Shown: piece by piece, positions 19,677 to 37,049 of the stretch | Layout of the letters: each line of letters starts with the position of its first letter | Numbering within the stretch: the stretch's first letter is position 1 | From: Nonomuraea angiospora | GTDB lineage: Bacteria > Actinomycetota > Actinomycetes > Streptosporangiales > Streptosporangiaceae | Assembly: GCF_014873145.1 (NCBI RefSeq) | Contig: NZ_JADBEK010000001.1 | Location: forward strand, 10,540,001 to 10,604,000 | DNA length: 64,000 nt | Reading direction: 5' to 3' | Translations under genes and position numbers: made by a program | The notes under the pieces: model-generated | The model's input: the letters and a program-made list of their open reading frames with translations, nothing else | Database searches by the model: none | Told to the model about the DNA's origin: nothing

Positions 19677-19698
19677 GCTCTTGATGCTAGGAGCCGGA

Positions 19699-19728
19699 GC
19701 ATATCCTCGGCATATCAAAAACCGCATA
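19699..19728. promoter_or_regulatory. Direct GCATATC repeats, likely response-regulator site
   Basis: GCATATC at 19699-19705 and 19710-19716 are exactly 11 bp apart, and a partial GCATA follows at 19724. They sit in the 87-bp spacer between the response-regulator and ABC-transporter starts. Direct half-sites one helical turn apart are the usual binding pattern of OmpR-type regulators. Confidence 0.6.
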
Positions 19729-19763
19729 CGTGCTGACAACGCCACGCTGCCTTGACTGGCGGC

Positions 19764-20467
<704 letters not shown>

Positions 20468-20468
<1 letters not shown>

Positions 20469-22882
20469 TGCGCACCGTCTTCCTCGCGTCGCTGCGCACC
20501 CACACCCGCAGGTACGTCGCAGCGGCCATCGCGGTCATCGTCTCGGTCGCCTTCGTCGTCGTGATCGGCGTGATCACGTCCGGGGCACGCGCCGGATTGA
20601 TGGAGAACGCCGGGGCGCCGTTCCGCAATGCCGACCACGTGGTCGACGCCGCCCACGTGGACGACACCCTGGACACGTCAGTCGCGATCGAGATCGCCGA
20701 GCGCCTTGGCGAGAACGCATCCGGGCTCGGCCGGGTCCTGCTGCCGACGCGCACGGGCGACAGGTCGGCCTCCGAGATGACCGTGGGGCCGATCGCGCCT
20801 GCCAAGGAGATGCGCTGGCAGAAGCTCATCTCAGGCCGCTTCCCGGAACGCACGGGCGAGGCGGTGGTGCACGTGTGGGACGCCCAGGCCAGGGGAATCG
20901 CGATCGGCGACCGGATGCGGATCGGCGAGGGCGCCACCGCGACCGACCTAGTAGTGGTCGGCCTCGTGGAGTCGCCCTCTCCCACGGTCCAGGCCTCGGT
21001 GTACGTCACCTGGCCGCAGTTCCTGCACTGGCGCGACCACCCCTCCTTCCACGTGAGCAGGGTGGCGGTACGCGGGGAGGTAGGCCAGCTCCCGGAGGGC
21101 GCCGCGCTGTACTCGCCGGAGGAGTACGTCAGGGTCGGCCAGGCCAAGCTCAGCAACCACACGGACATGATCGCGTTGATGCTGCTGGTGTTCGCCGCCA
21201 TCGCGGTCTTCGTCTCGGTCCTGGTCGTCGCGAACACGTTCTCCGTCATGTTCGCGCAACGCCTGCGCGACTTCGCACTGCTGCGCTGCGTCGGCGCGAC
21301 CCGGCGGCAGGTGGTGGGTTCGGTACGCCGCGAGGCGGCCGCCGTCGGCGTGCTCGCGTCGCTGACCGGGACACTGGTCGGCGTCGGCCTCGGCTACGGG
21401 CTGATCGCCCTGATCAACACCCTCGCACCCACCACCCCGATGGGCGCCGCCGGACTGCCCACGCCCTGGCTGTTGGGCGGGTTCACCGTCGGCCTGGTCG
21501 TCACCATGCTCGCCTCCTTGTTGCCGACCCGGCGTGTGGTCCGGGTGAGCCCGCTGGCGGCACTGCGCCCGGATACCGCGGTCGACGGACACACGGCCAC
21601 CGGCCGGGTACGGCTGGCGCTCGCTGCACTCCTCCTGGTCACCGGGCTGGCCCTGCTCGGGGCGGCGATGGTCCAGGACAGCACGGCGCTCATGCTGGCC
21701 GGCGGCGGATCGGTGTTCACCGGCGTGCTCCTGTCCGGGCCGGCGCTCGTTCCCCGCCTGGTCCGGATCACCGGCGCGCTGCTCGGCCCCGCAGGGCGGC
21801 TGGCAACCAAGAACGCCGTGCGCAACCCCCACCGGACCGCCGCCACCACCGCCTCCCTGCTGGTCTGCGTCACCCTGACGACCGCAGTGCTCACCGGATC
21901 GGCCACGACACGTACGGCCGTGGACGAGGAACGCGACAGGGATCACCCCATCGATGTCGCGCTCACCTCGCTCGAGACGCCGGTCACCACCGACCTCCTC
22001 GACCAGGTACGTCGCACTCCCGGTGTGGAGCAGGCCATACCGGTGGAGGGCGCCATGGCTCAGGTGGCGGGGCTCGACGAACCGGTCCTGGTCGTCACCG
22101 CGCCGGACGCGGAGCAGGTGGCCCGCGACGGTGGGTCGTTCGCCCGCGTGGAGCCGGGGAAGATCAGACTCGATGATGCGGCCTTTGGCAAGAACCTGAG
22201 CTGGCGGCCCGGTGACCGGGTCACGGTGCACGTCGGCGACCGGCGAGCCCAGTTGCAGGTCGTCGCCGGCACCGACTGGGGCCAGGTGGGCGTGGTCGCG
22301 CCCGGGACCCTGGCGCAGCTCACCGACTCCCCCGAACCGCACGTCATCTGGGTCCGCGCCTCCGCAGGCGCCGACCCGCTCGAGCTCGTCGGCGATCTGG
22401 CCGGGCTGGCGAATGCGGCCGGCGCGGAGATCCGCGATGACCTGCAGGCCCGGGCGACGGAGGACCAACTGCTGCGAATCCTCACCTGGTCGGTGCTCGG
22501 CCTGCTCGCAATCGCCGTGGTGATCGCCCTGATCGGGATCGCGAACACCCTGGGGCTCTCCGTCCTCGAACGCGCCCGCGAACACGCGATGCTGCGCGCG
22601 CTCGGGCTCACCCGCAGGCAGCTGCGGCGGATGCTGGCGACCGAGGCAATGCTGCTGTCGGTGGTGGCCACCCTGCTCGGCACCGTGATCGGCGTCGGGT
22701 TCGCCTGGGCCGGCTACGAGACGGTCGTGAAGTCGGCTCTCAGCGACGCCACCATGCAGGTCCCCTGGCCATCACTCGGCGTCGTTGCCCTCATCGCCGC
22801 TCTGGCCGGACTCCTCGCCGCTGTCCTCCCGGCACGCCGGGCCGCTCGGGTGACTCCGGCCGCAGGGCTGTCCCTCGACTGA
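20468..22882 (+). CDS. FtsX-like ABC transporter permease
   Basis: 804 residues. It has one N-terminal membrane helix (AAIAVIVSVAFVVVIGVITS), a ~200-residue external region, and then two FtsX blocks with three helices each: one around residues 235-370 (LMLLVFAAIAVFVSVLVVAN, then MLASLLPTRRVVRVSPLAAL) and one at the C-terminus (~680-800, LLAIAVVIALIGIANTL, ending LLAAVLPARRAARVTPAAGL). A second external region lies between them. This duplicated-FtsX layout is typical of actinobacterial export/resistance permeases partnered with a LolD-type ATPase. The substrate is unknown; antimicrobial peptides or lipids are the usual guesses. Confidence 0.92.
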
Positions 22883-22942
22883 TACCTTCATCAATCGCTT
22901 GTGCCCGGCGATCGTTCCGGCTCTTTCGGAAGTCGGCGGGTG

Positions 22943-22999
22943 GGCCTTCCGGTGGGTGACGGGGCTGGGATAGCCGTCATTGCCGCCGGAAGGCCGCTT
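22943..22999 (+). terminator. Possible terminator after the permease
   Basis: GGCCTTCCGG (22943-22952) pairs perfectly with CCGGAAGGCC (22986-22995), followed by GCTTTTG. The 33-nt loop could fold internally (GACGG...CCGTC). It lies between convergent transcription units. Confidence 0.45.
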
Positions 23000-23082
23000 T
23001 TGTCCGGGATCGAGCCCGCGCAGCAAGCGCAGGTCTGCGCACGGGTTGCTCGGGGGTACCCGAGCGGGCCCGTGTCACGTGA

Positions 23083-24513
23083 TCAGTGCTGCAGGGTCAG
23101 CAGTCCCGGCCGGTAGGGGAGGAGGCCGTAGTCGCCGCCGGAGCTGGGGTTGCGGCCCTGGTAGAGCAACTGCAGGTTGCAGGGGTCGACGGTCATGGTC
23201 TGATCAGGGTTGCTGCGGACCAGGTCGCCGTGGCTGATGTCGTTGGTCCAGGTGGCGCCGCTGTTGGCCTTGCCGGCGAAGGGGTTGCTCTCGGTCGCGG
23301 CCTGCGGGGTCCACGAACCGTCCAGGCTGGTGGCCGTGAACGAGCGGAAGTAGCGGCCCTGCGCGCCGATCGCCTCGACGAGCATGAGGTATCGGTTCTG
23401 GCCTTGGAGCTTGTAGACCTGAACGGCTTCAAAGAGGTTGTTCGTCGAGTCACTCATGATCACCGTGGATGTGGCGCCGAAATTGCCCGGGAAGTTCCCG
23501 ATGGGCATGCTGGCGCGGTAGATCTTGCCGTTGTCCCCGGCGAAGAACAGGTACATGTTGGTGCTGTCGCCGATGAGGGTCTGGTCGATGGGGCCCGTTC
23601 CGGAGCCGGAGATGCTTCCGGAGAAGAGCGCCTGTGGCGAGGACCAGCCGTTCGGGTTGGTGGGGTCGCTGGAGGTCCGGTAGGAGAAGGCGGTCGCGCC
23701 CCACTGGTAGGCGAGCACCCAGATGTTCTTCGGGGCGAAATAGAAGAGCGTGGGCGCGACGGTGGAGGAGGACATCGTGTTCTGGCTGGCCGAGGCCATG
23801 TCGGACCAGTTGGTGAAGAGGCCGAAGTTCATCGAGCCCCACGCCGTTCCCGTGTCGTGCGTCGTGCCGTAGACGAGGTGCCTGCCGTTGTAGACGACGG
23901 TGCTGAAGTCCTTGAGCGAGACCCACCCGGACTTCGGGTTCGCCAGCGGGCCGGTCGAGGTCCAGCGGTACGTCGACGGAAGGGCGCACGTGCCGGTCGG
24001 TGTGGGGGTGGGGGTGGGAGTTGGGGTCGGTGTGGGGGTGCCGGGGTTACCGCAGGTCACGCCGTTCAGGGCGAACGAGGTGGGCACCGGGTTGCTGCCG
24101 CTCCACGAGCCGTTGAACCCGAAGCCGGCGCTGCCGCCGGAGGGGATGGAGGCGTTGTAGGAGACGTTGGTGGCGGTCACCGACGAGCCGGACTGGGTCT
24201 GGGTGGCGTTCCAGATCTGGGTGATCTGCTGGCCGGCGCCGAAGGACCAGGTCAGCCGCCAGCCGTTGACCGCGTCACCGAGGTTGTTGATGGTGACGGT
24301 GGCGTTGAAGCCGCCTGCCCAGCTCGAACTGATGGCGTAGTCGACCCGGCAGGCGACGGCGGCCTGGGCGGGCTGGATGGTGAGCAGGCCTGCTCCGGCG
24401 AGCAGGGCTGCGATGGCGCCGATCACCAGGCCGCGGCGTGGGGCCCGCCGGGTCGGCGCCGCGGTCGTGACGGCGGAGGGGCGCGGTGACCGCGCTCGCC
24501 AGGGCAGACGCAT
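23083..24513 (-). CDS. Secreted GH62 alpha-L-arabinofuranosidase with N-terminal CBM2
   Basis: 476 residues. The ATG at 24513 has AGGAGA seven bases upstream; earlier in-frame ATGs lie within that SD. A long twin-basic leader and hydrophobic core end at AQA (about residue 50). CBM2 follows ([20 protein letters not shown], cellulose-binding Trp pattern), then a PT-repeat linker and a GH62 catalytic domain beginning [20 protein letters not shown] and including [22 protein letters not shown]62 enzymes remove arabinose side chains from arabinoxylan outside the cell. It is 30 bp downstream of the GH10 xylanase gene on the same strand, so the two are probably one transcript. Confidence 0.92.
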
Positions 24514-24543
24514 CTGTCTTCTCCTCATCATGTCCAACCGCCG

Positions 24544-25959
<1,416 letters not shown>

Positions 25960-26118
25960 TCACGGAAAAGCGGGACACGCGGGGTCACCCCACGCGATCG
26001 ACGCCGCGTCCCGTGATCGGGAACGCACACCACCAGGGCATCGTGAACGGCGTTCCTCACCGCGCACCACCACATGGCAGGAGGAAGCCTTCTCAGGGAC
26101 ACAGTCTGGAAACCGTGC

Positions 26119-26148
26119 CGAAAGTTGTCAAGCTTTGGCGAAAGTTTC
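26119..26148. promoter_or_regulatory. Paired CGAAAGTT operator-like sites upstream of xylanase
   Basis: CGAAAGTTGT at 26119 and CGAAAGTTTC at 26139 start exactly 20 bp apart, two helical turns. CGAAA-based palindromes are a known feature of Streptomyces xylanase promoters. A matching full site lies before the GH30 gene at 46648. Confidence 0.65.
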
Positions 26149-26331
26149 AGAGAGACGCTCTCGCCGTCGCGGGGGGCGACCCCCGATAACGCCTGATGAG
26201 CGCGCACGCCCCTCTATCGCCCCTCTATCGGCGCGAGGTGCCGTCCTTGACGTCGCCTCGCCGTCTCGTATTGGCTCGACCTGCCACCACGGCCATCTGA
26301 CAGAGAAGGAAACGCGACAGGGAAGAGGATG

Positions 26332-26345
26332 TGTGAGCGCTAACA
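26332..26345. promoter_or_regulatory. LacI-type palindrome TGTGAGCGCTAACA
   Basis: A 14-bp inverted repeat with central GC and one mismatched pair, typical of LacI-family sugar repressor operators. It is ~390 bp from both the xylanase start and the peptide start, so its target is uncertain. Confidence 0.5.
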
Positions 26346-26428
26346 GCCGACCGGGGGCCACCACCCGGCGGCCATGGCGCGGGGCGGTCCGGCGGACAGA
26401 CACCACGTCCCTGGAGCCGCCCTTTCGG

Positions 26429-26484
26429 AGGTTCACCGAGGAGGAGGTTCACTGAGGAGGAGGATCGCCGAGGAGGAGGTTCAC
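26429..26484. repeat. 16-bp tandem repeat, 3.5 copies, SD-like
   Basis: Units AGGTTCACCGAGGAGG, AGGTTCACTGAGGAGG, AGGATCGCCGAGGAGG and the half-unit AGGTTCAC follow each other exactly. Each contains GAGGAGG. No gene is in frame with it. Confidence 0.8.
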
Positions 26485-26595
26485 GGCGGCGAAGCCGCCG
26501 GCGACGGCCTGCGGTGGTGGCGGGCTGCGGCGGTGGTGCCCCGGCTCAGGGATGGGGACTGCAGGAACGGTCGTCACCGAGCCTTGTCATCGGCC

Positions 26596-26613
26596 GTCAC
26601 CTAGCCAGGTGAC
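26596..26613. promoter_or_regulatory. Perfect 7-bp inverted repeat upstream of Cys-rich peptide gene
   Basis: GTCACCT-AGCC-AGGTGAC, 121 bp before the peptide start. No T-tract follows, so an operator is more likely than a terminator. Confidence 0.4.
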
Positions 26614-26734
26614 CCCCTGTCAAGATCCTGAACCGCCGAACGATGCCCCCCAGCGTCGGCCAATCTCTCCCTTAACAGGATGCTCTTGCTGGGTGACCGT
26701 GAGCGCGTAAAGATCCCCATGCAAGGAGGTCGCC

Positions 26735-26908
26735 ATGATCCGCGCACTCAACAAGCTGGGAGACCGACTCCTCGACAAGTTCCTGCCGTCGGCGAACGCC
26801 TCGGCCGCGTGCTGGACCGACTGGTGCTGCCAGGGCAAGTTCTGCCGGACCTGCTGCTACCACGACTCCACCGGCACGACCAACTGCGGCAGCTTCGACT
26901 ACTGCTGA
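26735..26908 (+). CDS. 57-residue cysteine-rich peptide, probable RiPP/bacteriocin precursor
   Basis: The ATG at 26735 is preceded by AAGGAGGT six bases upstream, a near-perfect ribosome binding site. Residues 1-25 form a Cys-free amphipathic helix (MIRALNKLGDRLLDKFLPSA, then NASAA) resembling a leader rather than a Sec signal, since it has no hydrophobic core. Residues 26-57 contain all eight cysteines (26, 31, 32, 37, 40, 41, 51, 57) with Trp27, Trp30 and several Thr/Gly, ending FDYC. ASAA before Cys26 resembles a signal-peptidase-type or leader cleavage site. Downstream genes on the same strand encode a membrane thioredoxin-like protein and an ABC exporter. The most economical reading is a secreted disulfide-rich peptide; whether it is further modified is unknown. 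No LanB, LanM, YcaO or radical-SAM gene is nearby. Confidence 0.8.
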   Translation: MIRALNKLGDRLLDKFLPSANASAACWTDWCCQGKFCRTCCYHDSTGTTNCGSFDYC

Positions 26909-27013
26909 CGCGCCCTCCGACAGCCCCCAGGACAGTGCGGGCCGGCTCGGTGCCGGCCGGCGCCGTCCTGGCGGGTTCTCTGTGCTTCGCCGCCCACCCC
27001 CTGAGGAGCTCGC

Positions 27014-27541
27014 ATGCCGTATCTCGTCGCCGCCGTCGTCGTCGTCGGATTGCTGTGCCTGGTGGACCTGGTGCTGACCCTGGCGGTGATCCGCCGGCTG
27101 CGCGTGCACACGCTGCGGCTGGCCGAACTGGCGCCGGCGGGCGCCCCGATGGTGCAGCCGGGAACGACGCTCGGCGAGTTCAGCGCGACCGCCCTCAGCG
27201 GGGAGACCGTGTCGCGCGCGTTCTTCTCCGGGCCCTCCGTGGTGGCGGTGTTCTCCACCGAATGCGCGTCCTGCCACGAGCGGCTGCCGGAGTTCGCGTC
27301 CTACCTGGCCGACACCCGCCCACAACGCGTGCTGGCCGTGGTCGCGGGCGACCCCGACGCGGCCCGGTCGTTCACCGGCGAGCTGACCTCGGCCACCGTC
27401 GTGGTCGAGCCGATGGGCGGCCCGGTGGGCAGGGCCTTGCGGGTCTCCCGGTTCCCCAGCTTCTACCTGGTGGACGGTGACGGGGTGGTCGTCGCGGCCG
27501 ACACCGCCCCGGGCAGGCTGCCGGCGGCCACGCGCCGATGA
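27014..27541 (+). CDS. Membrane-anchored thioredoxin-fold (TlpA/MauD-like) protein
   Basis: 175 residues; GAGGAG precedes the ATG. One N-terminal membrane helix (residues ~3-26) is followed by a short linker and a thioredoxin-like domain (~55-170). This contains GTTLGEFSATALSGETVSRA, the redox motif FSTECASCHERLPEF (CASC) and the strand RFPSFYLVDGDGVVVA, whose Pro after RF is in the cis-Pro position. The layout resembles MauD, which helps form disulfides in the methylamine dehydrogenase light chain, and other TlpA-type proteins. With the eight-cysteine peptide 105 bp upstream, its likely job is oxidising or isomerising that peptide outside the membrane. Its stop overlaps the ABC exporter start (ATGA). 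Confidence 0.85.
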   Translation: MPYLVAAVVVVGLLCLVDLVLTLAVIRRLRVHTLRLAELAPAGAPMVQPGTTLGEFSATALSGETVSRAFFSGPSVVAVFSTECASCHERLPEFASYLADTRPQRVLAVVAGDPDAARSFTGELTSATVVVEPMGGPVGRALRVSRFPSFYLVDGDGVVVAADTAPGRLPAATRR

Positions 27542-29409
27542 CCTCTAGCGGCGCCACGCCGCGGCGGCGCTTCCGCGCGGCCGCGGCGTCGGCCTGGCGG
27601 GCGCACCCGGCCGCCGTCCTGGCATCCGGGATCACGGTGCTGCTCATGGGCCTGGTCCCGGTGGTCACGGCGTGGCTGACCAAGCTCGTGCTCGACGGGC
27701 TGGCGGCCGGGGCGGGCCTCGCCGAGCTGCTTCCGTACGGCGTGGCTCTCGGCGTGACCGGCCTGGCGGGCGCGGCCCTGCCCGCGGTCGCCGAGTACGC
27801 CCAGGAGCAGCTGCGCCGCGCGCTCCAGGTGCTGATCCAGGACCGGCTCTTCCAGGCCGTCAACGCCCACCCGGGGCTGAGCCGGTTCGAGAACCCGGCC
27901 TTCCACGACCGGGTGCGGCTGGCGCAGGAGGCCGGCCAGAACGCGCCGCAGCGGATCGTCCGCTCCGGCCTGGGGATCGCCCAGGGGGCCGTCACCCTCG
28001 CCGGGTTCACCGCGGCGCTGGCGGTGCTGGCGCCGGGGATGATCCTCGTCGTGGCGCTCTCCGCGGTCCCCTCGGTCCGCGCCCAGCTCGACCTGTCCCG
28101 GCGCCGCGCCGGCATGATGTGGGGCGTCAGCTCGAGGAGCCGTCGGCAGATCTTCTTCGCCGGCCTGCTCACCAGCCCCGACGCGGCCAAGGAGATCCGG
28201 CTGTTCGGCCTCGGCGACTTCCTGCGCGCCAGGATGCTGGGCGAGCTGCGCGCGGTCAACGCCGCCGAGCAGGGGCTCGCCCGCAGGACCCTGCGTACCC
28301 AGGGGTCGTTGTCGCTGCTCGGGGCGGCCGTCGCCGCGCTCGGCCTGCTGTGGGCGATCAGCGGCGCCGCGTCGGGCACGCTGAGCGTCGGCGACGTCGC
28401 CGTGTTCGTCGCGGCCGTCGCCGGGGTGCAGTCCGCGCTCGCGTCGGTCGTCGGCCAGTCCGCCGACGCGCACAACGCGCTGCTGATGTTCGGGCACTAC
28501 CTCGACGTCGTGGCCGACGCGCCGGACCTGCCCGTCCCGCGGCGGCCGCGCCCCGTCCCCGCGCTGCGCGAGGGCATCGAGGTGCGCGACGTGTGGTTCC
28601 GGTACGACGACGCGCATCCGTGGGTGCTGCGCGGAATCGACCTCTTCATCCCGCGCGGCGGCTCCCTCGCCCTGGTCGGGCTGAACGGCGTGGGCAAGAG
28701 CACCCTGGTCAAGCTCATCTGCCGGCTGTACGACCCGGTACGCGGCTCCATCCACTGGGACGGCGTCGACCTGCGGGACCTGGACCCCGCCGAACTGCGC
28801 GGCCGCATCGGCGCGGTGTTCCAGGACTACATGTCGTACGACCTGACCGCGGCCGAGAACATCGGGCTCGGCGACGTCGCGGCGCTCGACGACCGGGACC
28901 GGGTCGAGGAAGCCGCCAGGCTGGCCGGTGTCCACGAGACGGTCGCCGGGCTGCCGCGGGGCTACGAGACGCTGCTGAGCCGGATCTTCTTCGGCGACCG
29001 GGACGACCCGCAGGCCGGAGTGGTGCTGTCCGGCGGGCAGTGGCAGCGCCTCGCGCTGGCCCGTGCCCTGATGCGCAAGGGGCGGGACCTGCTCGTGCTC
29101 GACGAGCCGAGCTCCGGCCTGGACGCGCAGGCCGAGCACGCCATCCACCAGAGCCTGCGCCGCCACCGCGCCGGGCGGACCAGCCTGCTGATCTCGCACC
29201 GGCTCGGCGCGGTGCGGGAGGCGGACGTGATCGTCGTGCTCGCCGAGGGGCGGATCGCCGAGCGGGGCTCGCACGCGGAGCTGATGGCGCTGGGAGGTGA
29301 GTACGCGGGGCTGTTCACCCTCCAGGCCCAGGGCTACGAGCCGGCGGATTCGGGGGAGGTGTCGAGCCGGCGGACGACGACGCCGAGCACGCGGTCGAAG
29401 GGCACGTAA
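27538..29409 (+). CDS. ABC exporter (fused membrane and ATPase domains), probable peptide exporter
   Basis: 623 residues with a 4-bp start overlap with the thioredoxin-like gene. The N-terminal ~310 residues form the transmembrane domain, with the AKEIRLFGLGDFL motif typical of lanthipeptide and other actinobacterial peptide exporters. The C-terminal ATPase has Walker A GLNGVGKST, the Q-loop FQDYMSYDLTAAENI, signature LSGGQWQRLALARAL, Walker B LLVLDEPSSGLD and LLISHRLGAV. There is no N-terminal C39 peptidase domain, so precursor cleavage must be done by another protein. The last 76 bp overlap antisense with the 3' end of the signal peptidase gene. The tight coupling to the thioredoxin-like protein and the peptide gene points to the peptide as substrate. 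Confidence 0.9.
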   Translation: MTSSGATPRRRFRAAAASAWRAHPAAVLASGITVLLMGLVPVVTAWLTKLVLDGLAAGAGLAELLPYGVALGVTGLAGAALPAVAEYAQEQLRRALQVLIQDRLFQAVNAHPGLSRFENPAFHDRVRLAQEAGQNAPQRIVRSGLGIAQGAVTLAGFTAALAVLAPGMILVVALSAVPSVRAQLDLSRRRAGMMWGVSSRSRRQIFFAGLLTSPDAAKEIRLFGLGDFLRARMLGELRAVNAAEQGLARRTLRTQGSLSLLGAAVAALGLLWAISGAASGTLSVGDVAVFVAAVAGVQSALASVVGQSADAHNALLMFGHYLDVVADAPDLPVPRRPRPVPALREGIEVRDVWFRYDDAHPWVLRGIDLFIPRGGSLALVGLNGVGKSTLVKLICRLYDPVRGSIHWDGVDLRDLDPAELRGRIGAVFQDYMSYDLTAAENIGLGDVAALDDRDRVEEAARLAGVHETVAGLPRGYETLLSRIFFGDRDDPQAGVVLSGGQWQRLALARALMRKGRDLLVLDEPSSGLDAQAEHAIHQSLRRHRAGRTSLLISHRLGAVREADVIVVLAEGRIAERGSHAELMALGGEYAGLFTLQAQGYEPADSGEVSSRRTTTPSTRSKGT

Positions 29410-29813
29410 CCCCATGCCCGCGAGTCCTCGCTGACCGGCCCGTCACCGAGGACGACCAGCCGGCCCGCCGGGACCGGGTCGCCCGGCGACGCCTCCACCC
29501 GAGCCGCGACCTGGCCGGGCACCGGATCGCCCGGCACGGCCACCGCCCGCTTGATGAACCACCTGGCCGCCCCCGGCCGGGGCAGCGGCCCCGTACGCCA
29601 CTTCCCTCCGGGCAGCGCGGTCTGCAGCACCACGACCTGGCCGCGCCTGACACCCGCCCCCGTGGTCCTGCGGACGAGCACCCGGTCGCCCGTCCGGTAG
29701 GTCGGCAGCATGCTCGCCCCGCTGATCCGGACGACGACGAACCGCCTCCGGGCGACGACCAGCCCGGCGGCCAGGGCCGCGATCGGGGCCAGCAGGATCA
29801 TGACGCGCCGCAC
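29334..29813 (-). CDS. Type I signal peptidase-like protease (S26)
   Basis: 159 residues from the GTG at 29813, which has GGAGGG four bases upstream; a TTG 12 bp earlier would sit on that SD. One N-terminal membrane helix is followed by the S26 motif SGASMLPT with the catalytic Ser (residue 34) and the general base Lys (residue 88) in FIKRAVAVPGD, then LGDGPVSEDSRAWGYVP, the conserved GD..DSR..G box. It is short but complete. It would cleave exported precursors on the outer side of the membrane. It faces the peptide cassette and overlaps the ABC exporter 3' end by 76 bp; a role in maturing the Cys-rich peptide after ASAA is attractive but unproven. Confidence 0.85.
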   Translation of the reverse strand: MRRVMILLAPIAALAAGLVVARRRFVVVRISGASMLPTYRTGDRVLVRRTTGAGVRRGQVVVLQTALPGGKWRTGPLPRPGAARWFIKRAVAVPGDPVPGQVAARVEASPGDPVPAGRLVVLGDGPVSEDSRAWGYVPFDRVLGVVVRRLDTSPESAGS

Positions 29814-29854
29814 GGCGCCCTCCAAAGTCGATCACCACCAGTGGACTGCCGACA

Positions 29855-30637
29855 CTAACGCCCGATCTCCTCCTCCGGGGAAGGGGAGGGGGCTCGACGC
29901 AGCCGTACCGCGAGCACGATCAGGACGACGGGCAGGAGCGTGTAGAGCGCCCACGCGAGCGTGACCGGATCGGCCGCCGCCCCCTCCTCCGAGGACTGCG
30001 CGCACCCGAGCACCGGCATCCAGTTCATCGCCAGGTCCCTGAGCACCATGGGCGCCACCGTCAGCCAGCCGACGAGCCGGCCCAGCGGCCGGCGGCCGGT
30101 GCGGGCCAGCAGTGCCCACAGCCCGAAGCCCACCGCGACCACGATCGGCTGCGGGATCAGGACCAGGACGGCCGTCGCGAACATGATCTCCTCCGTGCCG
30201 CCGAAACAGTCGCCGTTCATGATCATGATCGAGTACTCCCTCGTCTCGCCGGCCAGGGGCGCCAGGAGCATCGCCAGAGGAATGCTCACCAGCACCAGCG
30301 CGACGCCCCACATGACCAGCGGCCATCGCAGGCGCGGCGGAGGCATGCCCTCCCCACGGACGGCCTGACCGAGCGTCAGGAGCAGCGCCGCCGTGGCGAG
30401 GCAGGCGAGGGCGATCAGCAGCAGGTCGTCGGTGTCCCAGGGCAGGATTCGCAGATCCCCGAAGTCGATCGGTCCGCCGCCGGCGCTCCGGCCCGCGACA
30501 TAACGCACGACCTCCTCCTGGCTGGGCTTGTCGAGCCCGCTGATCGGCGTCGCGGCGGCGGCCACGGCGAGCAGGGCCAGCAGCGCGGCGCCCAGCCGTG
30601 GCGCCCAGCGCCGGTGGCGCAGCACCACGACGGGCAC
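29855..30637 (-). CDS. Multi-pass membrane protein of unknown function
   Basis: About 260 residues with six or so predicted membrane helices (e.g. LGAALLALLAVAAAATPI, LLLIALACLATAALLLTLG, WPLVMWGVALVLVSIPLAML, TLAWALYTLLPVVLIVLAVRL) and a charged tail. The first external loop carries VRYVAGRSAGGGPIDFGDLR. The GTG at 30637 is the first accepted start, but the reading frame stays hydrophobic and open back to the stop codon of the TauE gene (30704). The true start may therefore be slightly earlier with a rare codon. It is 41 bp upstream of the signal peptidase and probably co-transcribed with it. I recognise no family. Confidence 0.65.
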   Translation of the reverse strand: MPVVVLRHRRWAPRLGAALLALLAVAAAATPISGLDKPSQEEVVRYVAGRSAGGGPIDFGDLRILPWDTDDLLLIALACLATAALLLTLGQAVRGEGMPPPRLRWPLVMWGVALVLVSIPLAMLLAPLAGETREYSIMIMNGDCFGGTEEIMFATAVLVLIPQPIVVAVGFGLWALLARTGRRPLGRLVGWLTVAPMVLRDLAMNWMPVLGCAQSSEEGAAADPVTLAWALYTLLPVVLIVLAVRLRRAPSPSPEEEIGR

Positions 30638-30703
30638 GACCAGGAGGGCGGCGACGGCCGCACCGGCGACGACGTTGGCGGTGCCGGGCGCGATGGCGGC
30701 GCT

Positions 30704-31450
30704 TCAGCGGACGAGCAGGTGGACGAGGGCGATCCCGCCGACGGCCACGATCAGGAAGCGTAGCGTCGCCGGGCTGAAGCGCCGGCCCGCCTCGGCGCCG
30801 AGCCGGCCACCGAGGGCGGAGCCGGTCGCGATGAGCGCGACGGCCGTCCAGTCGTAGTCCGCGACGAACAGGAAGAGGAGCGCGGCGGCCGCGTTGACCA
30901 CGGCGACCAGGACGTTCTTGGCGGCGTTGAGCCGCTGGGGCGTCTCGTCGAGGAGCATGCCCATGAGGGCCATGTAGATGATCCCCTGGGCGGCGGCGAA
31001 GTAGCCGCCGTAGACGCCGGCGAGCAGCAGCCCGGCGAAGAGCCCGCGACCGGACGTCTCGCGGCGGCGGTGGCTAAGGAGCTTGGTGATGCGGGGCTGC
31101 AGGACGACCAGGACGAGGGCCAGGGCCACCAGGACGGGGACGATCCGTTCGAACGCCGTGGCCGGCAGGGTCAGCAGCAGCACGGCGCCGCACAGGCCGC
31201 CGAGCAGGGCGGCGACGCTCAGCCTCAGCAGGCGCCGGGACTGGCCGCGAAGCTCCCTGCGGTAGCCGATGGCGCCGCTGATGGAGCCGGGGATCAGGCC
31301 GAGCGCGTTGGTGACCGTGGCGGTGACGGGCGGCAGGCCGATGGCGAGCAGCACGGGGAAGGTGATGAGGGTGCCGGAGCCGACGACGGTGTTGAGGGCG
31401 CCGGCGCCGATGCTCGTCGCGAAGACGGCGAGCATCTCCCAGGGGGTCAC
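30704..31450 (-). CDS. TauE/SafE-family (TSUP) permease
   Basis: 248 residues with a GTG start after GGAGGCG. The typical twofold TSUP pattern is visible: the N-terminal GAGALNTVVGSGTLITFPVLL and the second-half LLAGVYGGYFAAAQGIIYMA, with eight or so membrane helices and a final LRFLIVAVGGIALVHLL. The family moves small anions such as sulfite or sulfoacetate, or other organic anions; the substrate is not deducible. It is upstream of the unknown membrane protein on the same strand, without clear functional linkage. Confidence 0.88.
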   Translation of the reverse strand: MTPWEMLAVFATSIGAGALNTVVGSGTLITFPVLLAIGLPPVTATVTNALGLIPGSISGAIGYRRELRGQSRRLLRLSVAALLGGLCGAVLLLTLPATAFERIVPVLVALALVLVVLQPRITKLLSHRRRETSGRGLFAGLLLAGVYGGYFAAAQGIIYMALMGMLLDETPQRLNAAKNVLVAVVNAAAALLFLFVADYDWTAVALIATGSALGGRLGAEAGRRFSPATLRFLIVAVGGIALVHLLVR

Positions 31451-31575
31451 GACGCCTCCGCGGGGGAGGCGCTGCTCATGGCCGGCGGGGTCGGCGTCAT
31501 GCGGCCGACGTTAGGCGGGAAAAGCTTCGACGCCCGGCGAAGTGTCGGCGCCCACGCCGTGACGAGGAGCGACGG

Positions 31576-32538
31576 TCACCTATGCCCGCGGTCCCGGTCG
31601 AAGCGGCCGGAGAGGGCGGGGAGCAGGCCGCGGGGCAGGAAGAGCACGACCAGGATGAGGACGAGCGCGTACACGGCGTACGACAGCACGCCGGGCGCGT
31701 ACGACGGCATCCCCGGCAGCGCGGCCAAGCTGTTCAGCCCCTGCACGAGCAGCGTGATCGCGGTCGCGCCGACCACGGCGCCCCAGATCGTGCCCAGCCC
31801 GCCGACCACGGCCATCACGATGTACTGGATCGAGATGAGCACGGGGAACGAGCCCGGCGCCACGTACCCCGTGTAGAAGCAGTAGATCCCGCCCGCGAGC
31901 CCCGCGAACGCCGCCGACAGCGCGAACACCACCAGCTTGTACCGCCCGACGGGGATCCCCGAGGACGCGGCGGCGGTCTCGCTGGTGGCCAGCGCGCGCA
32001 GGGCGCGGCCCGGCCGCGAGGTGATCACGTTCCGGGTCACCAGCATCACCAGCGCCAGCCCGATCCAGGTCAGGTACGCGTACGCGGACGCGCCGCCCGC
32101 CTCGAACGACCCGACCGAGAACTGCGGGATGGCCTGCAGCCCGATGTCCCCGCCGGTGACCTCCAGCTGCCCGGCCAGCGAGAGCAGGATGAGCTGCATG
32201 GCCAGCGTCGCGAACGCCAGGTGGTGCCCGCGCAGCCGCAGCAGCGGCACGCCGATCACCAGCGCCGACGCGGCCGCCACCACCGGAGCGGCGACCAGCC
32301 CGGCCAGCGGTGGCACGCCGTGCAGGGACAGCAGCGCGGCGGTGTAGGCGCCGACGGCGTAGAAGGCGCCCTGGCCCAGCGACACCTGCCCGGCGTAGCC
32401 CATCAGCAGCGACACCCCGACGGTGACCATCGCGGCCAGCCCGAGCAGGATGTACACGGCCAGCGCGCTGTCGTCGAGCACGGCGGGCAGCGCCAGCGTC
32501 ACGGCCGCGACCGCCGGCCCGGCCACCCGGCGGATCAT
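31576..32538 (-). CDS. livM: Branched-chain amino-acid-type ABC permease LivM
   Basis: 320 residues. The ATG overlaps the livH stop by 4 bp. It has the family core MGYAGQVSLGQGAFYAVGAY, then LRLRGHHLAFATLAMQL, ALATSETAAASSGI and GGLGTIWGAVVGA, ten or so helices and a short charged tail. It is the second permease of a high-affinity importer. It is last in the operon. Confidence 0.92.
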   Translation of the reverse strand: MIRRVAGPAVAAVTLALPAVLDDSALAVYILLGLAAMVTVGVSLLMGYAGQVSLGQGAFYAVGAYTAALLSLHGVPPLAGLVAAPVVAAASALVIGVPLLRLRGHHLAFATLAMQLILLSLAGQLEVTGGDIGLQAIPQFSVGSFEAGGASAYAYLTWIGLALVMLVTRNVITSRPGRALRALATSETAAASSGIPVGRYKLVVFALSAAFAGLAGGIYCFYTGYVAPGSFPVLISIQYIVMAVVGGLGTIWGAVVGATAITLLVQGLNSLAALPGMPSYAPGVLSYAVYALVLILVVLFLPRGLLPALSGRFDRDRGHR

Positions 32539-33395
32539 GCCGGTTCCTGCGAGATGGCCGAGCGCCGGCTCGCCTGTACGATCATGACGACGATCATGAG
32601 ACCCAGCGCCACCTCCAGCTGGTGCGATCCGTAGCCGTACCCGGCGGCCATGGTCTCGGCCACGCCCAGCAGCAGCGCTCCGGCCAGCGTGATCACGGGC
32701 CGGGTGAGCGCGCCGAAGACGGCCGCGGCGAAGGCGTTCACGATGAGCGTGACGTCGGTGTCGAACGAGATCGGCCGCAGCGGCGTCACCAGCACCCCGG
32801 CGATCCCGCCGAGCAGCCCGCCCAGCGCGAACGCCAGCAGCCCCATCAGCCGCGTGTCGATCCCGACCACGCGGGCGGCGTACGGGTTGGAGGCGCACGC
32901 CGTCAGCGCCTTGCCCAGGTAGGTGCGCCCGAAGAAGAGCGCCAGCAGCACGAACGCGGCCGCCGTCACGCCGATGACCAGCAGGTGCTGCGTCTGGACG
33001 CGCGCGCCCGCCAGCGTCACCGAGCCGGCCAGGCCGGGCGCCGAACGCGGCTGGTCGCCCCACAGGACGATCTCGACGGCGTACGCGAGCACGCCCACGC
33101 CGAGCGTCACGATCAGGGACGACAGCGGCGTGGTGCCCCGCCGGCCGATGGCGGCCAGGCCGGTCAGCAGCCCCGCCAGCGCCGCGACCAGGATGGCGGC
33201 CAGCTCGCTCAGCCCGTGCGGGAACCCCAGCCCGAGCAGCGACGACGCGCACAGCCCGGCCACGACCGCGAACGTGCCCTGCGCGAAGTTCACCACGCCC
33301 GTGACGCGGTGGATCACGACCAGGCCGCTGGCGATGAGCGCGATCGCGCATCCGACCGCGAGCCCGTTCAGCAGGTACGTGAGGAAGGCGCTCAT
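32535..33395 (-). CDS. livH: Branched-chain amino-acid-type ABC permease LivH
   Basis: 286 residues from the ATG at 33395, overlapping the livF stop by 4 bp. Motifs are VNFAQGTFAVVAGL near the N-terminus, LTACASNPYAARVVGID and VFGALTRPVITLAGALLLGV. A longer open frame upstream overlaps livF and is not used. It forms the transmembrane pore together with LivM. Confidence 0.92.
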   Translation of the reverse strand: MSAFLTYLLNGLAVGCAIALIASGLVVIHRVTGVVNFAQGTFAVVAGLCASSLLGLGFPHGLSELAAILVAALAGLLTGLAAIGRRGTTPLSSLIVTLGVGVLAYAVEIVLWGDQPRSAPGLAGSVTLAGARVQTQHLLVIGVTAAAFVLLALFFGRTYLGKALTACASNPYAARVVGIDTRLMGLLAFALGGLLGGIAGVLVTPLRPISFDTDVTLIVNAFAAAVFGALTRPVITLAGALLLGVAETMAAGYGYGSHQLEVALGLMIVVMIVQASRRSAISQEPA

Positions 33396-34051
33396 GTGAT
33401 CGCCCCGCCCAGGTACGCGCTGGCCACCCGAGGGTCGCCGGCCAGCTCCGCGCACTCGCCCTCGGTCACCACCCGCCCGGACTCCAGCACGTACGCCCGC
33501 CCGCACAGGTCGAACGCCAGCCGCGCGTTCTGCTCGATGAGCAGCACGGTCAGCCCCTGCTCCCGGTTCAGCTCGGCGAGGTGGGCGGCCAGGCCGGCGG
33601 TCACGTTCGGGGCCAGGCCCAGGGAGAGCTCGTCCACGACGAGCGCCTCGGGCCGCGACATCAGGGCGCGCCCGAACGCCACCATCTGCTGCTCGCCCCC
33701 CGACAGCACCCCGGCCCGCCGCCCGGCCAGCTCCGCCAGCCGGGGCAGCAGCTCGTACACCGAGGAGGGGTCCCGCAGGCCCGACCGCCACCCGCCCAGG
33801 GCCAGGTTGTCGGCGACCGACAGGTCAGGGAAGAGCTGGCGGCCCTCCGGGATGAGGGCCAGCCTGCCCCCGATCCGCACCGTGCCCGAGGCGGGCCGCA
33901 GCAGCTCGGCGAGGGTGTTGGCCAGCGTGGACTTGCCCGCGCCGTTCGGGCCGAGCAGGGCGACCATCTCGCCCCGCCCCACGGTGAGCGTGACGTGGTC
34001 GAGCGCGGTCGCGGTGCCGTACGAGACGACCAGGTCCTTGACGTCGATCAT
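33392..34051 (-). CDS. livF: Branched-chain amino-acid-type ABC ATPase LivF
   Basis: 219 residues from the ATG at 34051. Walker A is GPNGAGKST, the signature LSGGEQQMVAFGRAL (LivF-specific EQQM), Walker B ALVVDELSLGLAP and H-loop LIEQNARLAF. It is slightly shorter than the usual ~235. The start overlaps the livG stop by 4 bp. Confidence 0.93.
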   Translation of the reverse strand: MIDVKDLVVSYGTATALDHVTLTVGRGEMVALLGPNGAGKSTLANTLAELLRPASGTVRIGGRLALIPEGRQLFPDLSVADNLALGGWRSGLRDPSSVYELLPRLAELAGRRAGVLSGGEQQMVAFGRALMSRPEALVVDELSLGLAPNVTAGLAAHLAELNREQGLTVLLIEQNARLAFDLCGRAYVLESGRVVTEGECAELAGDPRVASAYLGGAIT

Positions 34052-34803
34052 GCGCTCTGCCCGAGGTAGGCGGCGAGCACCAGCGGGTCGGCCCGCACCT
34101 CGGCGGGCGGGCCGTCGGCGATGACCCGGCCCAGGTCGAGCACCACCACGCGGTCGGCCAGCCGGGTCACGAACGCGACGTCGTGCTCGACCAGCAGGAT
34201 CGTCAGCCCGTCCGCGCGCAGCTCCTCCACCAGCGCCGCGAGCCGCTCGCGCTCCTGACCGCGCAGCCCCGAGGCGGGCTCGTCGAGCAGCAGCAGCCGG
34301 GGCCGGGCGCACAGGGCGCGGGCGAGCTGGAGCGCCCGCTGCTGCCCGATGGGCAGCAGGTCGGCGGGCCGGTCCGCCCACTCGGCCAGCCCCACGCGGC
34401 TCAGCACGGCCTCCGCCTCGGCGGTGATCTCGCGCTCGTCGCGCCGGTGCCGCGGCAGCCGCAGCGCCGCCGACACGAACCCCGCACCGGTACGGCCGTG
34501 CATCCCGACCATGACGTTCTCCCTGACCGTCATGCCGCGGAACACCCTGGCCGCCTGGAACACGATCGACATGCCGAGCCTGGCCCGCCGGTGCGGCGCG
34601 AGCCGCTCCACCCGGTGCCCGCGGAAGGAGATCTGGCCGTGGTCGGCCTCCAGATGCCCGGTGATGAGGTTGAACAGCGTGGACTTGCCCGCCCCGTTCG
34701 GCCCGATGACGCCGCAGACCTCGCCGTCCGCGACGGCCAGGGACACGTCGCGGACGGCGTAGACGCCCCCGAAGGAGCGCGAGAGCCCGGTGACCGTCAG
34801 CAC
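34048..34803 (-). CDS. livG: Branched-chain amino-acid-type ABC ATPase LivG
   Basis: 251 residues with a GTG start, 3 bp downstream of the livK stop. Walker A is GPNGAGKST, Walker B LLLLDEPASGL and H-loop LLVEHDVAFV. The signature is altered: instead of LSxGxQ it reads LLPIGQQRALQLARAL. The C-terminal LGRVIADGPPAEVRADPLVL is the standard LivG tail. It pairs with LivF as a heterodimeric ATPase. Confidence 0.92.
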   Translation of the reverse strand: MLTVTGLSRSFGGVYAVRDVSLAVADGEVCGVIGPNGAGKSTLFNLITGHLEADHGQISFRGHRVERLAPHRRARLGMSIVFQAARVFRGMTVRENVMVGMHGRTGAGFVSAALRLPRHRRDEREITAEAEAVLSRVGLAEWADRPADLLPIGQQRALQLARALCARPRLLLLDEPASGLRGQERERLAALVEELRADGLTILLVEHDVAFVTRLADRVVVLDLGRVIADGPPAEVRADPLVLAAYLGQSA

Positions 34804-34806
34804 CGG

Positions 34807-35988
34807 CTACCCCGCGCCGACGGTCTTGGCGAGCTGCTCCTTGGCCCAGTCGGTGGGAACGAACTTCCCGTTCTGCACCGTGTTGACCGAGATGAACTCG
34901 GGGGAGAGGCCGGAGTGGTCGGTGGGGGAGTAGCGGAAGCGGCCGTTGGGCGTGACCAGGTCCATGGTCTCCAGTGCCTGCTGGACCTTGGCCTGGTCGG
35001 TGCTGTTCGCCTTCTTGATCGCCTCGAAGAGCAGCAGGCTCGCACTGTAGCCGTCCTGCGCGAACTGCGGCGGTGGATAGCCGTGTTTCTGCTGGTACGG
35101 CTTGGCCATCTGCTCGATGACCTGCTTCTGCTTGCCGTCGGGCAGATATTCGCCGACGACGCCGATGGCGCTCTGCACCGTCATGCCCTCGGCCGCGCCG
35201 CCCATCGGCTCCAGCCACAGCTTGCTGGCCTGCGAGGCGGTCAGGAACAGCGGCGTCTTGAGCCCCGAGGCCACGTACTGCTTGGCCGCCGTCACGCCGG
35301 GCGCGCCCGAGCCCCAGAACACCAGCGCCTCGGCGGCGGAGTCGCGCACGTGGGTGAAGAGCGGGCTGAAGTCCGAGGTGGTCGTCTCGTACGGCTCGTC
35401 CACGGCGACCTTCACCCCGTACTTCGGCGCGAGCGCGATCATCGACTTGTGGCCGGAGACCGAATAGGCGCTCTTGGAGTCCCAGGCCACGGCGATCGTC
35501 TTGATGCCCTTGGCCTGGAGGTACTGCAGGTAGCGCTCGGCGTACATGCTGGACAGGGCGGGGGTGACGAAGATGTACGACTTGATCGGCTCGACCTGCT
35601 CCTGCGCCGGGGCCAGCGACAGGTACGGCATCTTGTCGCGCTGCGCGAGCGGCTCGACCGCCAGCGCCGAGTTGGAGAACACCGGGCCGATCAGCACGTC
35701 GATGTCGCCCTTGATCTGGTTGTAGGCCACGATGCCCTGGTCGGGGGCGGTCTTGTCGTCGCGCGTGACCAGCTCCACCTTGCGGCCGAGCAGGCCGCCC
35801 TGCGCGTTGACCTGCTCGACGGCCAGCTCGACGGCCTTCTTGTCCTCGCTGCCCAGCGGCGTGTAGTTGCCGGTGAGGGAGACGATGAGGCCGACCTTGA
35901 TCGGGTCTTGGGCGCCGCCGCCGGAATCACCGCCGCAGGCGGTCGCGGCCAACGCGAGACAAACCAGAGACGGGAGCAGCCTGCGCAT
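34807..35988 (-). CDS. livK: Substrate-binding lipoprotein of the Liv-type transporter
   Basis: 393 residues. The ATG at 35988 follows GGAGGG and starts a lipoprotein signal with lipobox LAATAC. The rest is a type I periplasmic binding fold (VGLIVSLTGNYTPLGSEDKK, AVELAVEQVNAQGGLLGRKV, DVLIGPVFSNSALAVEP). It is first in a livKGFHM operon. The divergent PaaX gene and downstream acyl-CoA ligase suggest the ligand may be an aromatic or other organic acid rather than Leu/Ile/Val; that is inference. Confidence 0.9.
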   Translation of the reverse strand: MRRLLPSLVCLALAATACGGDSGGGAQDPIKVGLIVSLTGNYTPLGSEDKKAVELAVEQVNAQGGLLGRKVELVTRDDKTAPDQGIVAYNQIKGDIDVLIGPVFSNSALAVEPLAQRDKMPYLSLAPAQEQVEPIKSYIFVTPALSSMYAERYLQYLQAKGIKTIAVAWDSKSAYSVSGHKSMIALAPKYGVKVAVDEPYETTTSDFSPLFTHVRDSAAEALVFWGSGAPGVTAAKQYVASGLKTPLFLTASQASKLWLEPMGGAAEGMTVQSAIGVVGEYLPDGKQKQVIEQMAKPYQQKHGYPPPQFAQDGYSASLLLFEAIKKANSTDQAKVQQALETMDLVTPNGRFRYSPTDHSGLSPEFISVNTVQNGKFVPTDWAKEQLAKTVGAG

Positions 35989-36191
35989 CAGGACCCTCCA
36001 AGCCGTGCTTATGGCCTCCACTCCGTGGAGGCGGCTCGGTCGCCGGGGAGCCGTCGCCTTCCCTCGTCACTCCGGTCGCTGCGCTCCCTGCGTTCCTCAG
36101 TCCAGGCGACGGCGCTCCCTCACGTGGCCCTGAATGTAGGCAGATATATTACGGCTGTCAATAGAATGCCCAAGATGCGGGGAGGGCTGAG

Positions 36192-36998
36192 ATGCGGCCT
36201 CAGTCGGTGATTCTGACGTTCCTCGGCGATCACGTGTACGGCCGCGGGATCTGCGTGTCCTCGGGCAGCTTCATCGAGGCGTTCGCCAAGGTCGGGATCT
36301 CGGAGGAGGCGACGCGTTCGACGCTGACCCGGATGGTCCGCCGCGACCTGCTGCGCCGCCAGCGCTCGGGCCGCCGCATGTACTTCGGGCTCACCCCGAC
36401 GAGCACCGAGGTGCTCAAGGACGGCGAGCGGCGCATCTGGCACAGCGGCGTCGTCAACGACGCGGACGAGGACCGCTGGACGCTGATCGGCTTCTCGCTG
36501 CCCGAGTCCTGGCAGCGGCAGCGGCACGAGCTGCGCTCGCGGCTGGTCTGGGCCGGGTTCGGGCCGCTGCAGAACGGCCTGTGGATCGCTCCCGGCGACG
36601 TGGACGCCGCGCGCGTGATCGAGGACCTCGGCGCGAACGTGAAGGTCTTCGCCGCCGAACCCCGGCACCCCACCGACATGCAGGCGCTGGTCGGGGACGC
36701 CTACGACCTGTCGGGCCTGGGCGAGCGCTACCGGGAGTTCCTGCGCCGCTGGGACCGGGCCGACCCGGCGCCGGACGCGCCCGACGACCTGGCGCGCTCG
36801 CTGACGCTGCTGACCGACTGGCTGCAGGTCATCAGGGCCGATCCGCGGCTACCGCTGCGCTACCTGCCGCACGACTGGCCGGCGGAGAAGGCCCAGCGGG
36901 TCTGCCACGCGCTGCACGAGCGGTTCAGGCCGGAGGCGGGGCGGATCGCGGAGCGGCTCCTCGACGTCGTCCCGGATGAAACTTGGGCAGAACGGTGA
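36192..36998 (+). CDS. PaaX-family transcriptional regulator
   Basis: 268 residues; GGAGGG precedes the ATG. The N-terminal winged HTH (MRPQSVILTFLGDHVYGRGI, then EEATRSTLTRMVRRDLLRRQ) is followed by the PaaX middle domain (WTLIGFSLPESWQRQRHELR and LVWAGFGPLQNGLWIAP) and the C-terminal PaaX_C segment. PaaX proteins bind aryl-CoA thioesters such as phenylacetyl-CoA. It is divergent from the liv operon with 203 bp of A/T-rich spacer and followed by an acyl-CoA ligase, so it probably controls both. Confidence 0.9.
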   Translation: MRPQSVILTFLGDHVYGRGICVSSGSFIEAFAKVGISEEATRSTLTRMVRRDLLRRQRSGRRMYFGLTPTSTEVLKDGERRIWHSGVVNDADEDRWTLIGFSLPESWQRQRHELRSRLVWAGFGPLQNGLWIAPGDVDAARVIEDLGANVKVFAAEPRHPTDMQALVGDAYDLSGLGERYREFLRRWDRADPAPDAPDDLARSLTLLTDWLQVIRADPRLPLRYLPHDWPAEKAQRVCHALHERFRPEAGRIAERLLDVVPDETWAER

Positions 36999-37049
36999 CA
37001 GCGATCGCCCAGTGGCCTAACTTGATGGCTTGAGCGTCAAGGAGCGCCG

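Follow-up and report, generated by a model that had tools for sequence, protein, structure and literature searches.

The window analyzed here is a stretch of 64,000 nucleotides at 10.54-10.60 Mb of the single-contig 13.1-Mb genome of Nonomuraea angiospora. It contains a compact group of four genes, here called the cassette, that appears to be dedicated to the production of a disulfide-rich peptide: a small precursor gene, genes for a TlpA/MauD-like thioredoxin-fold protein and an ATP-binding cassette (ABC) exporter, and a facing gene for a signal-peptidase-like protein of family S26. An earlier note on this DNA had described a 57-codon gene with a near-perfect Shine-Dalgarno (SD) word, followed by a CASC thioredoxin-fold gene and an exporter gene, and all of these features, together with the facing signal peptidase, could be confirmed, as listed below.

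26723..26729, + strand: SD-like word AAGGAGG, read directly, 5 bases 5' of the precursor ATG
26735..26908, + strand: precursor peptide gene, 57 amino acids (open reading frame (ORF) read; family members in other genomes)
26735..26806, + strand: leader, residues 1-24, Cys-free and amphipathic, with Pro18 and Ala22-x-Ala24 (predicted cut after Ala24)
26807..26905, + strand: core, residues 25-57, 33 amino acids with eight Cys (up to four putative disulfides)
26922..26977, + strand: strong hairpin in the gap between precursor and TlpA genes (no clear U-tract; possible attenuator or mRNA stabilizer)
27014..27541, + strand: TlpA/MauD-like thioredoxin-fold protein, 175 amino acids, CASC (one predicted N-terminal membrane helix)
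27538..29409, + strand: ABC exporter, fused permease and ATPase, 623 amino acids, without C39 domain (Pfam, NCBIfam)
29334..29825, - strand: S26 signal-peptidase-like protein, 163 amino acids, convergent with the ABC gene

An ATGA overlap joins the TlpA-like ORF to the ABC ORF, and the 3' ends of the convergent ABC and S26 genes share 76 bases. The TlpA-like ORF scored 27.5 bits against Pfam AhpC-TSA (cut-off 26), remained below the cut-off of the MauD equivalog TIGR02661 (23.4 versus 188.6 bits, NCBIfam) and has its hydropathy peak at residue 8. In the exporter, Pfam matched ABC_tran and found no C39 peptidase domain, in line with what the earlier note had claimed. The S26 ORF, whose TTG start is a mechanical assignment only, matched signal peptidase I (TIGR02227) with 66.4 bits against a cut-off of 47 and carries the catalytic Ser and Lys motifs as SMLP and KRAVAVPGD. 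The 108-base gap between the precursor and TlpA genes had a folding z of -2.5, with 7 of 200 shuffles equally stable; over the 129 family precursors introduced below, the corresponding region had a median z of -1.56, with 54 values of z < -2. The stability of the hairpin is above average, which is suggestive only and not decisive.

The precursor consists of MIRALNKLGDRLLDKFLPSANASA before the predicted cut and ACWTDWCCQGKFCRTCCYHDSTGTTNCGSFDYC after it, and an identical peptide is encoded in Nonomuraea jabiensis. As the earlier note had stated, Cys is confined to the C-terminal half, at residues 26, 31, 32, 37, 40, 41, 51 and 57. The hydrophobic moment of the leader was matched by 1% of 500 shuffles. 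Charges are spread throughout this leader, which does not have the uncharged hydrophobic h-region of a Sec signal peptide, and the best 19-residue hydropathy of the precursor (0.27) is too low for a transmembrane helix. A low-confidence AlphaFold model of the precursor (mean predicted local distance difference test score, pLDDT, 58) placed a helix at residues 3-16 and strands at 39-43 and 49-53, and its confidence was lowest at residues 18-25. No solved structure was matched by the peptide profile in a sequence search with E up to 1.

A profile search at E <= 1e-3 over 104 stretches including the window (stretches carry L numbers) gave 138 hits. One of the stretches, L055, is the same place as L163; once it was dropped, 129 distinct peptides from 103 loci were left for the analysis of family anatomy, although L055 is still counted among the 138 hits and among the 124 stretches considered for MauE. 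L158 gave a marginal hit (E 0.0097), which was excluded from every count. An SD-like word was present 5' of 130 of the 131 precursor genes examined. In 126 of the 129 distinct peptides, Ala occurred at both P+4 and P+6 from the leader Pro (Pro-x3-Ala-x-Ala), and the leader was free of Cys in 126 of the 127 peptides having a recognizable Ala-x-Ala. The helical moment exceeded that of shuffles (p < 0.05) in 74% of 128 family leaders, and the longest hydrophobic run in any of them was 8 residues. Judged by these properties, the family leader is not a usual Sec signal. Because the Ala residues at -3 and -1 are so strongly conserved, a cut after Ala24 is predicted, and cleavage there is likely rather than before Cys26 as first proposed; the expected product has 33 residues instead of 32. 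By the same P+4/P+6 rule, the cores are 22-45 residues long. Cys accounts for 17.7% of core residues, and its spacing differs among cores. Mean pairwise identity over 2,500 sampled pairs was 0.46 for the leader, 0.32 for the core and 0.27 for the core without Cys columns, that is, the conserved leader and variable core of ribosomally synthesized and post-translationally modified peptides (RiPPs).

The peptide family is widespread. A search with the single sequence found it in 36 of 197 genomes, and a 23-row profile (A1) found it in 159 of 345 genomes of the order, belonging to 28 of 70 genera (own genome counted in both cases). With a 32-row profile (A2; E <= 1e-4), it was detected in 23 of 394 genomes of the class, 18 in the window's family f1 and 5 in family f20. 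Protein-database searches returned 34 and 35 homologs from Nonomuraea, Actinomadura, Microbispora, Planomonospora, Streptomyces, Embleya, Micromonospora, Dactylosporangium and others, and all the named ones are 'hypothetical' or 'uncharacterized'. The view that the peptide does not belong to a known cytosolic small-protein family also held: the 23 aligned members had no credible match in Pfam, NCBIfam or PHROGs, and weak matches (E 0.019-0.074; for example, blaTHIN, 14 of 700 bits, and Toxin_17) touched one or two of them.

Within the own genome, the peptide, the TlpA gene and close ABC relatives coincide at 10.57, 8.46 and 5.68 Mb. These are the only three places with a TlpA relative in 13.1 Mb and also the places of the close ABC relatives (651 bits or more, against 285 for the next match), and S26 relatives were found at the same three places plus one further. 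Such co-occurrence of the cassette genes is far above chance. Similar linkage was seen across the 103 loci, where TlpA, ABC and S26 genes lay within 6 kb of the peptide in 86, 92 and 94 cases, respectively; the full set was present at 79 loci, and two or more of the three genes at 95. Thus, homologs sit next to the partner genes and are not scattered, as the earlier note had anticipated. A CxxC motif was found in 89 of 92 family TlpA matches, and simple SMxP-like and KRxxxxPGD-like patterns in 81 and 78 of 97 S26 matches. Gene order and strand vary among cassettes. Over 76 cassettes, distances were correlated between TlpA and ABC (r = 0.94), ABC and S26 (0.81), and leader and ABC (0.74), and shuffles gave at most 0.09. 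In one subfamily (L031, L032, L036, L038, L057 and L061-L063), an S26 gene lies beyond a large AfsR/SARP-type regulator, ~3 kb from the precursor, and in L031 and L032 another S26 gene adjoins the ABC gene. Seven different precursors surround a single TlpA-ABC-S26-MauE set in L163 (9079-14965). Precursors with no TlpA, ABC or S26 gene within 6 kb were observed in L039, L060, L117, L138 and L144, the last with four in a row; their maturation may rely on a cassette at another place in the genome.

Further evidence came from the number of Cys residues. Among the 127 peptides with a recognizable Ala-x-Ala, the core contained 4 Cys in 27, 5 in 1, 6 in 63, 8 in 34 and 10 in 2, so that 126 of 127 cores were even; the two other members of the 129 were omitted from this count, and both show six Cys. 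The odd member (L120) has a C-terminus extended relative to L118 and belongs to a decayed cassette, with a TlpA match broken up between two frames and little left of the ABC match. Even numbers were also observed in all 25 additional peptides of L207-L226 and in the Cys totals of 69 database proteins except P0023 (9 Cys, with a start that is extended upstream) and P0059 (7 Cys), whereas control small ORFs with 4-10 Cys were even in 90 of 125 cases. After clustering at 50% identity, none of 19 core clusters was mainly odd (p ~0.002 at the control rate of 0.72). Near-universal even numbers support full disulfide pairing, and complete pairing would be their simplest cause.

A fifth component was beyond the view of the earlier note, since the window has none: the membrane protein MauE, which was not found anywhere in the window, occurs near most relatives. 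It was present somewhere in the stretch in 82 of 124 stretches (PF07291, 71 and 93 bits in two examples), and 78 of its 84 matches carry CxCFG. The two remaining cassettes of the own genome have it, and in the close relative L048 it sits between the precursor and TlpA. The absence of TlpA was confined to cassettes with four-Cys peptides. Among the 92 cassettes having an ABC gene, when the whole fetched stretch was considered, TlpA was absent from 10 of 24 four-Cys cassettes versus none of 68 with six or more Cys. With the search limited to 6 kb, it was absent from one of the 68 richer cassettes, namely the six-Cys cassette L134 with TlpA ~7 kb away (Fisher p = 2.5e-6). On an exporter tree of the 92 loci having an ABC gene, the TlpA absences required 7 changes, at least 6 of them on well-supported branches. 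All of these fell in one clade of 24 cassettes, all four-Cys, comprising 17% of total branch length; six changes in that clade would be expected by chance with a probability of ~2.5e-5. All 10 TlpA-less cassettes also had no MauE. By itself, MauE was linked less closely to Cys number, being missing from the fetched stretch for 21 of the 68 richer ones. There are 3 possible pairings for two disulfides, 15 for three and 105 for four. Because TlpA was lost only where two disulfides are expected, these pairing numbers suggest that TlpA, with MauE where present, may edit pairing rather than merely oxidize. Two-disulfide peptides still need oxidizing, and the loss pattern therefore fits isomerase or proofreading activity at least as well as primary oxidation.

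On the basis of these results, we propose that the cassette is a dedicated system that makes, exports, trims and folds a disulfide-rich peptide, a reading of sequence data to which we assign a probability of roughly three in four. The 57-residue precursor with its 24-residue amphipathic leader, which is seen as sequence, would be synthesized and its non-Sec leader recognized by the cassette's ABC exporter, which would move the peptide out of the cell. Outside, the S26 peptidase is predicted, from motif and gene linkage, to cut after Ala24 and free the 33-residue core. The membrane-tethered TlpA-like protein would then form or reshuffle disulfides, up to four in this case, and in most relatives MauE would probably be its redox partner in the membrane; this step is supported by Cys parity and by the loss of TlpA only where two disulfides are expected. 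Thus, the outline of the earlier proposal, an exported, cleaved and disulfide-folded peptide, agrees with linkage and parity, whereas its cut before Cys26 was replaced by the Ala-x-Ala site. The product might finally act as a secreted antagonistic, bacteriocin-like peptide. This is the weakest step, and we consider the odds about even; it is suggested by the variable core, the patchy distribution, the tandem arrays and the AfsR/SARP-type regulators at half of the cassettes.

Several observations weigh against this proposal. TlpA proteins may be reductants, and electrons could therefore flow in either direction. At most one partner gene was found within 6 kb at 8 of the 103 loci, 5 of which had none. 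The database member P0059 carries seven Cys, and parity counts are non-independent through kinship, so that per-sequence p values overstate the case. The window cassette, having no MauE, would need a borrowed partner. In addition, MauE appeared to be gained or lost often (21 changes on the exporter tree), and an independent-pairs test of TlpA and MauE stayed above 0.05 (median p = 0.06). Finally, no immunity gene was recognized among the 25 most recurrent neighbor clusters (ORFs of at least 70 amino acids), which weakens the bacteriocin interpretation.

The same absence would suit a peptide that serves as a signal, for example a pheromone or developmental morphogen, perhaps tied to the AfsR/SARP-type regulator and with the biosynthesis unchanged. 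An AfsR/SARP-type ORF of more than 450 amino acids is present at 51 of 103 loci, and one example has BTAD, NB-ARC and TPR domains. However, such regulators are cytosolic and common near antibiotic clusters, none occurs at 18000-38000 of the window, and the seven precursors on one machinery set in L163 look more like weapon diversification; we regard a signaling role as rather doubtful. It is also conceivable that the linkage is real and the S26 gene is a housekeeping one, with the leader being removed by another protease or kept. The S26 gene is convergent here and varies in distance and strand, but it lies within 6 kb at 94 of 103 loci, its distances track those of ABC (r = 0.81) and Ala-x-Ala is nearly invariant, which makes such an arrangement improbable.

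Two other explanations concern the fate of the Cys residues. A metal-binding core (metallophore or metallothionein-like), kept reduced by TlpA/MauE, would fit the high Cys content (17.7% of core residues) and the fact that some TlpA proteins are reductants. Even parity across 4, 6, 8 and 10 Cys is nevertheless expected of disulfides and not of metal clusters, the spacing of Cys varies among cores, and no metal transporter or chelator enzyme was seen among those exemplars of the 25 most recurrent neighbor clusters that have a Pfam name, so that this explanation appears very unlikely. Slightly less credible still is a product of the lanthipeptide type, or another thioether RiPP, with the gene for its modifying enzyme located outside the cassette. 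The own genome does have a LanL locus (class IV) that also contains MauE and the ABC exporter next in similarity, but no Lan enzyme is found among the same exemplars, and a thioether bridge joins one Cys with one other residue and would thus give no bias to even Cys counts.

The survey of neighbors took the ORFs of at least 70 amino acids outside the cassette genes at 103 loci and covered their 25 most recurrent clusters, among which no peptide-modifying enzyme was recognized. The top clusters were MauE (56 loci) and AfsR/SARP-type regulators (55), and most others were shifted or antisense readings of both. Other Pfam-named neighbors were nSTAND-WD40 (17 loci), ABC ATPase (16), response regulators (11 and 11), histidine kinase (10), LysR (9) and non-ribosomal peptide synthetase (6). 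Two 8-locus clusters had no Pfam match, and one 14-locus cluster was half unexplained. Within the window, a membrane protein at 29855-30637 was considered as a candidate for immunity and rejected, as it recurs only in L045 among 43 loci; phage defense was likewise dismissed because PADLOC recognized the ABC protein only as a generic ATPase. At 23083-24537 and 24544-25938 (- strand), adjacent GH62 and GH10 enzymes, each with a CBM2 domain, probably take part in secreted xylan degradation. The class IV lanthipeptide locus mentioned above lies at ~10.941-10.947 Mb (L234, 4740-10786; LanL NF038150, 751.5 bits). Besides an SflA-like precursor whose tail is rich in Cys, it encodes the ABC exporter that is most similar to that of the window after its close relatives, as well as MauE; the reading frame of this MauE contains one more stretch bearing CxxC. 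Redox modules of the MauE type might be used for lanthipeptides as well.

Genome mining finds such peptides mainly through modifying enzymes. As no usual modifying enzyme is recognized here, members are filed as hypothetical proteins. If our proposal is true, it would give access to a large group of compact peptides that are rich in disulfides and come with a folding machinery of their own. The repeated loss of TlpA/MauE where two disulfides are expected, with TlpA never lost in 68 richer cassettes, amounts to a natural experiment and provides a testable claim on when bacteria need a disulfide editor. More broadly, there is perhaps an equal chance either way that the family represents a large unnamed actinomycete class of disulfide-only peptides, with an ABC-read amphipathic non-Sec leader, Ala-x-Ala trimming outside the cell by a dedicated signal-peptidase-type enzyme, and TlpA/MauE topology editing that is needed for three or more disulfides and dispensable for two. 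To our knowledge, these three features (leader type, S26-type trimming and TlpA/MauE editing) are not known together. One machinery set that folds many cores could serve as a general-purpose bacterial maker of knotted mini-proteins.

Comparison with known systems showed partial likeness in each case. Pediocin PA-1, with two disulfides, is accompanied by PedC, a thioredoxin-like CXXC protein whose co-production raises potency, and its ABC transporter takes part in leader excision (PMC4919988). On that account, both systems have a small precursor, an ABC exporter and a thioredoxin-like CXXC accessory protein. However, the cassette exporter has no C39 domain, the leader is of Ala-x-Ala instead of GG type (-3/-1 Ala in 126 of 129), a separate S26 peptidase, more Cys and, in many relatives, MauE are present, and the immunity gene pedB has no recognized counterpart at the cassettes. 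Thiol-disulfide oxidoreductases are also described as involved in the maturation of sublancin 168 and other glycocins (PMC4919988). No glycosyltransferase was recognized at the cassettes. In addition, glycocin leader and protease differ from those of the cassette. TMcin, reported in a preprint, combines a precursor, a leader protease, the DsbA-like TmcD and an ABC exporter with experimentally assigned roles (PMC13252029), and as described there it offers a functional model for the division of labor proposed for the cassette. Its precursor has a transmembrane helix and one disulfide and is processed by an S2P protease, none of which applies to the cassette. By the defining test of each, the cassette falls outside both the pediocin and the TMcin systems. 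In methylamine dehydrogenase maturation, MauE is speculated to act in disulfide formation and the role of MauD is described as unclear (PMC7794033). The pairing of a PF07291 MauE with a MauD-like thioredoxin-fold protein is shared with that system, whereas no mau substrate was present among the named recurring neighbors.

Among the papers listed in the searches, the only direct precedent is decRiPPter, which in 2020 listed three uncharacterized Streptomyces candidate families with mauE, one of them also with mauD; their precursors, with at least 8 Cys, were suggested targets of MauE/MauD modification, and the filter required a transporter, a peptidase and a regulator (PMC7794033). The window precursor likewise has 8 Cys, and all five f20 (Streptomyces) members (L054 and L208-L211) have MauE nearby, with 8 Cys in L054, L209 and L211. 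The window cassette differs in having no MauE in the window. The main text of that paper mentions neither S26 nor thioredoxin ('s26' occurs once in the whole text), and its section 7 does not tell of a conserved Ala-x-Ala leader (PMC7794033). Compared by description only, its mauE/mauD candidates are probably kin of the family's Streptomyces members. The label 'undescribed' in the earlier note thus stands as regards characterization, and does not stand in so far as similar mauE/mauD candidates had been listed. For the leader, the S26 link, parity and spread, no published account was found among the top matches listed from open-licence papers, an absence that is weak evidence. Taken together, the sequence comparisons indicate that the cassette is conserved and is a variant of the known leader-exporter-disulfide-catalyst kind, and probable relatives of the cassette have already been mentioned computationally.

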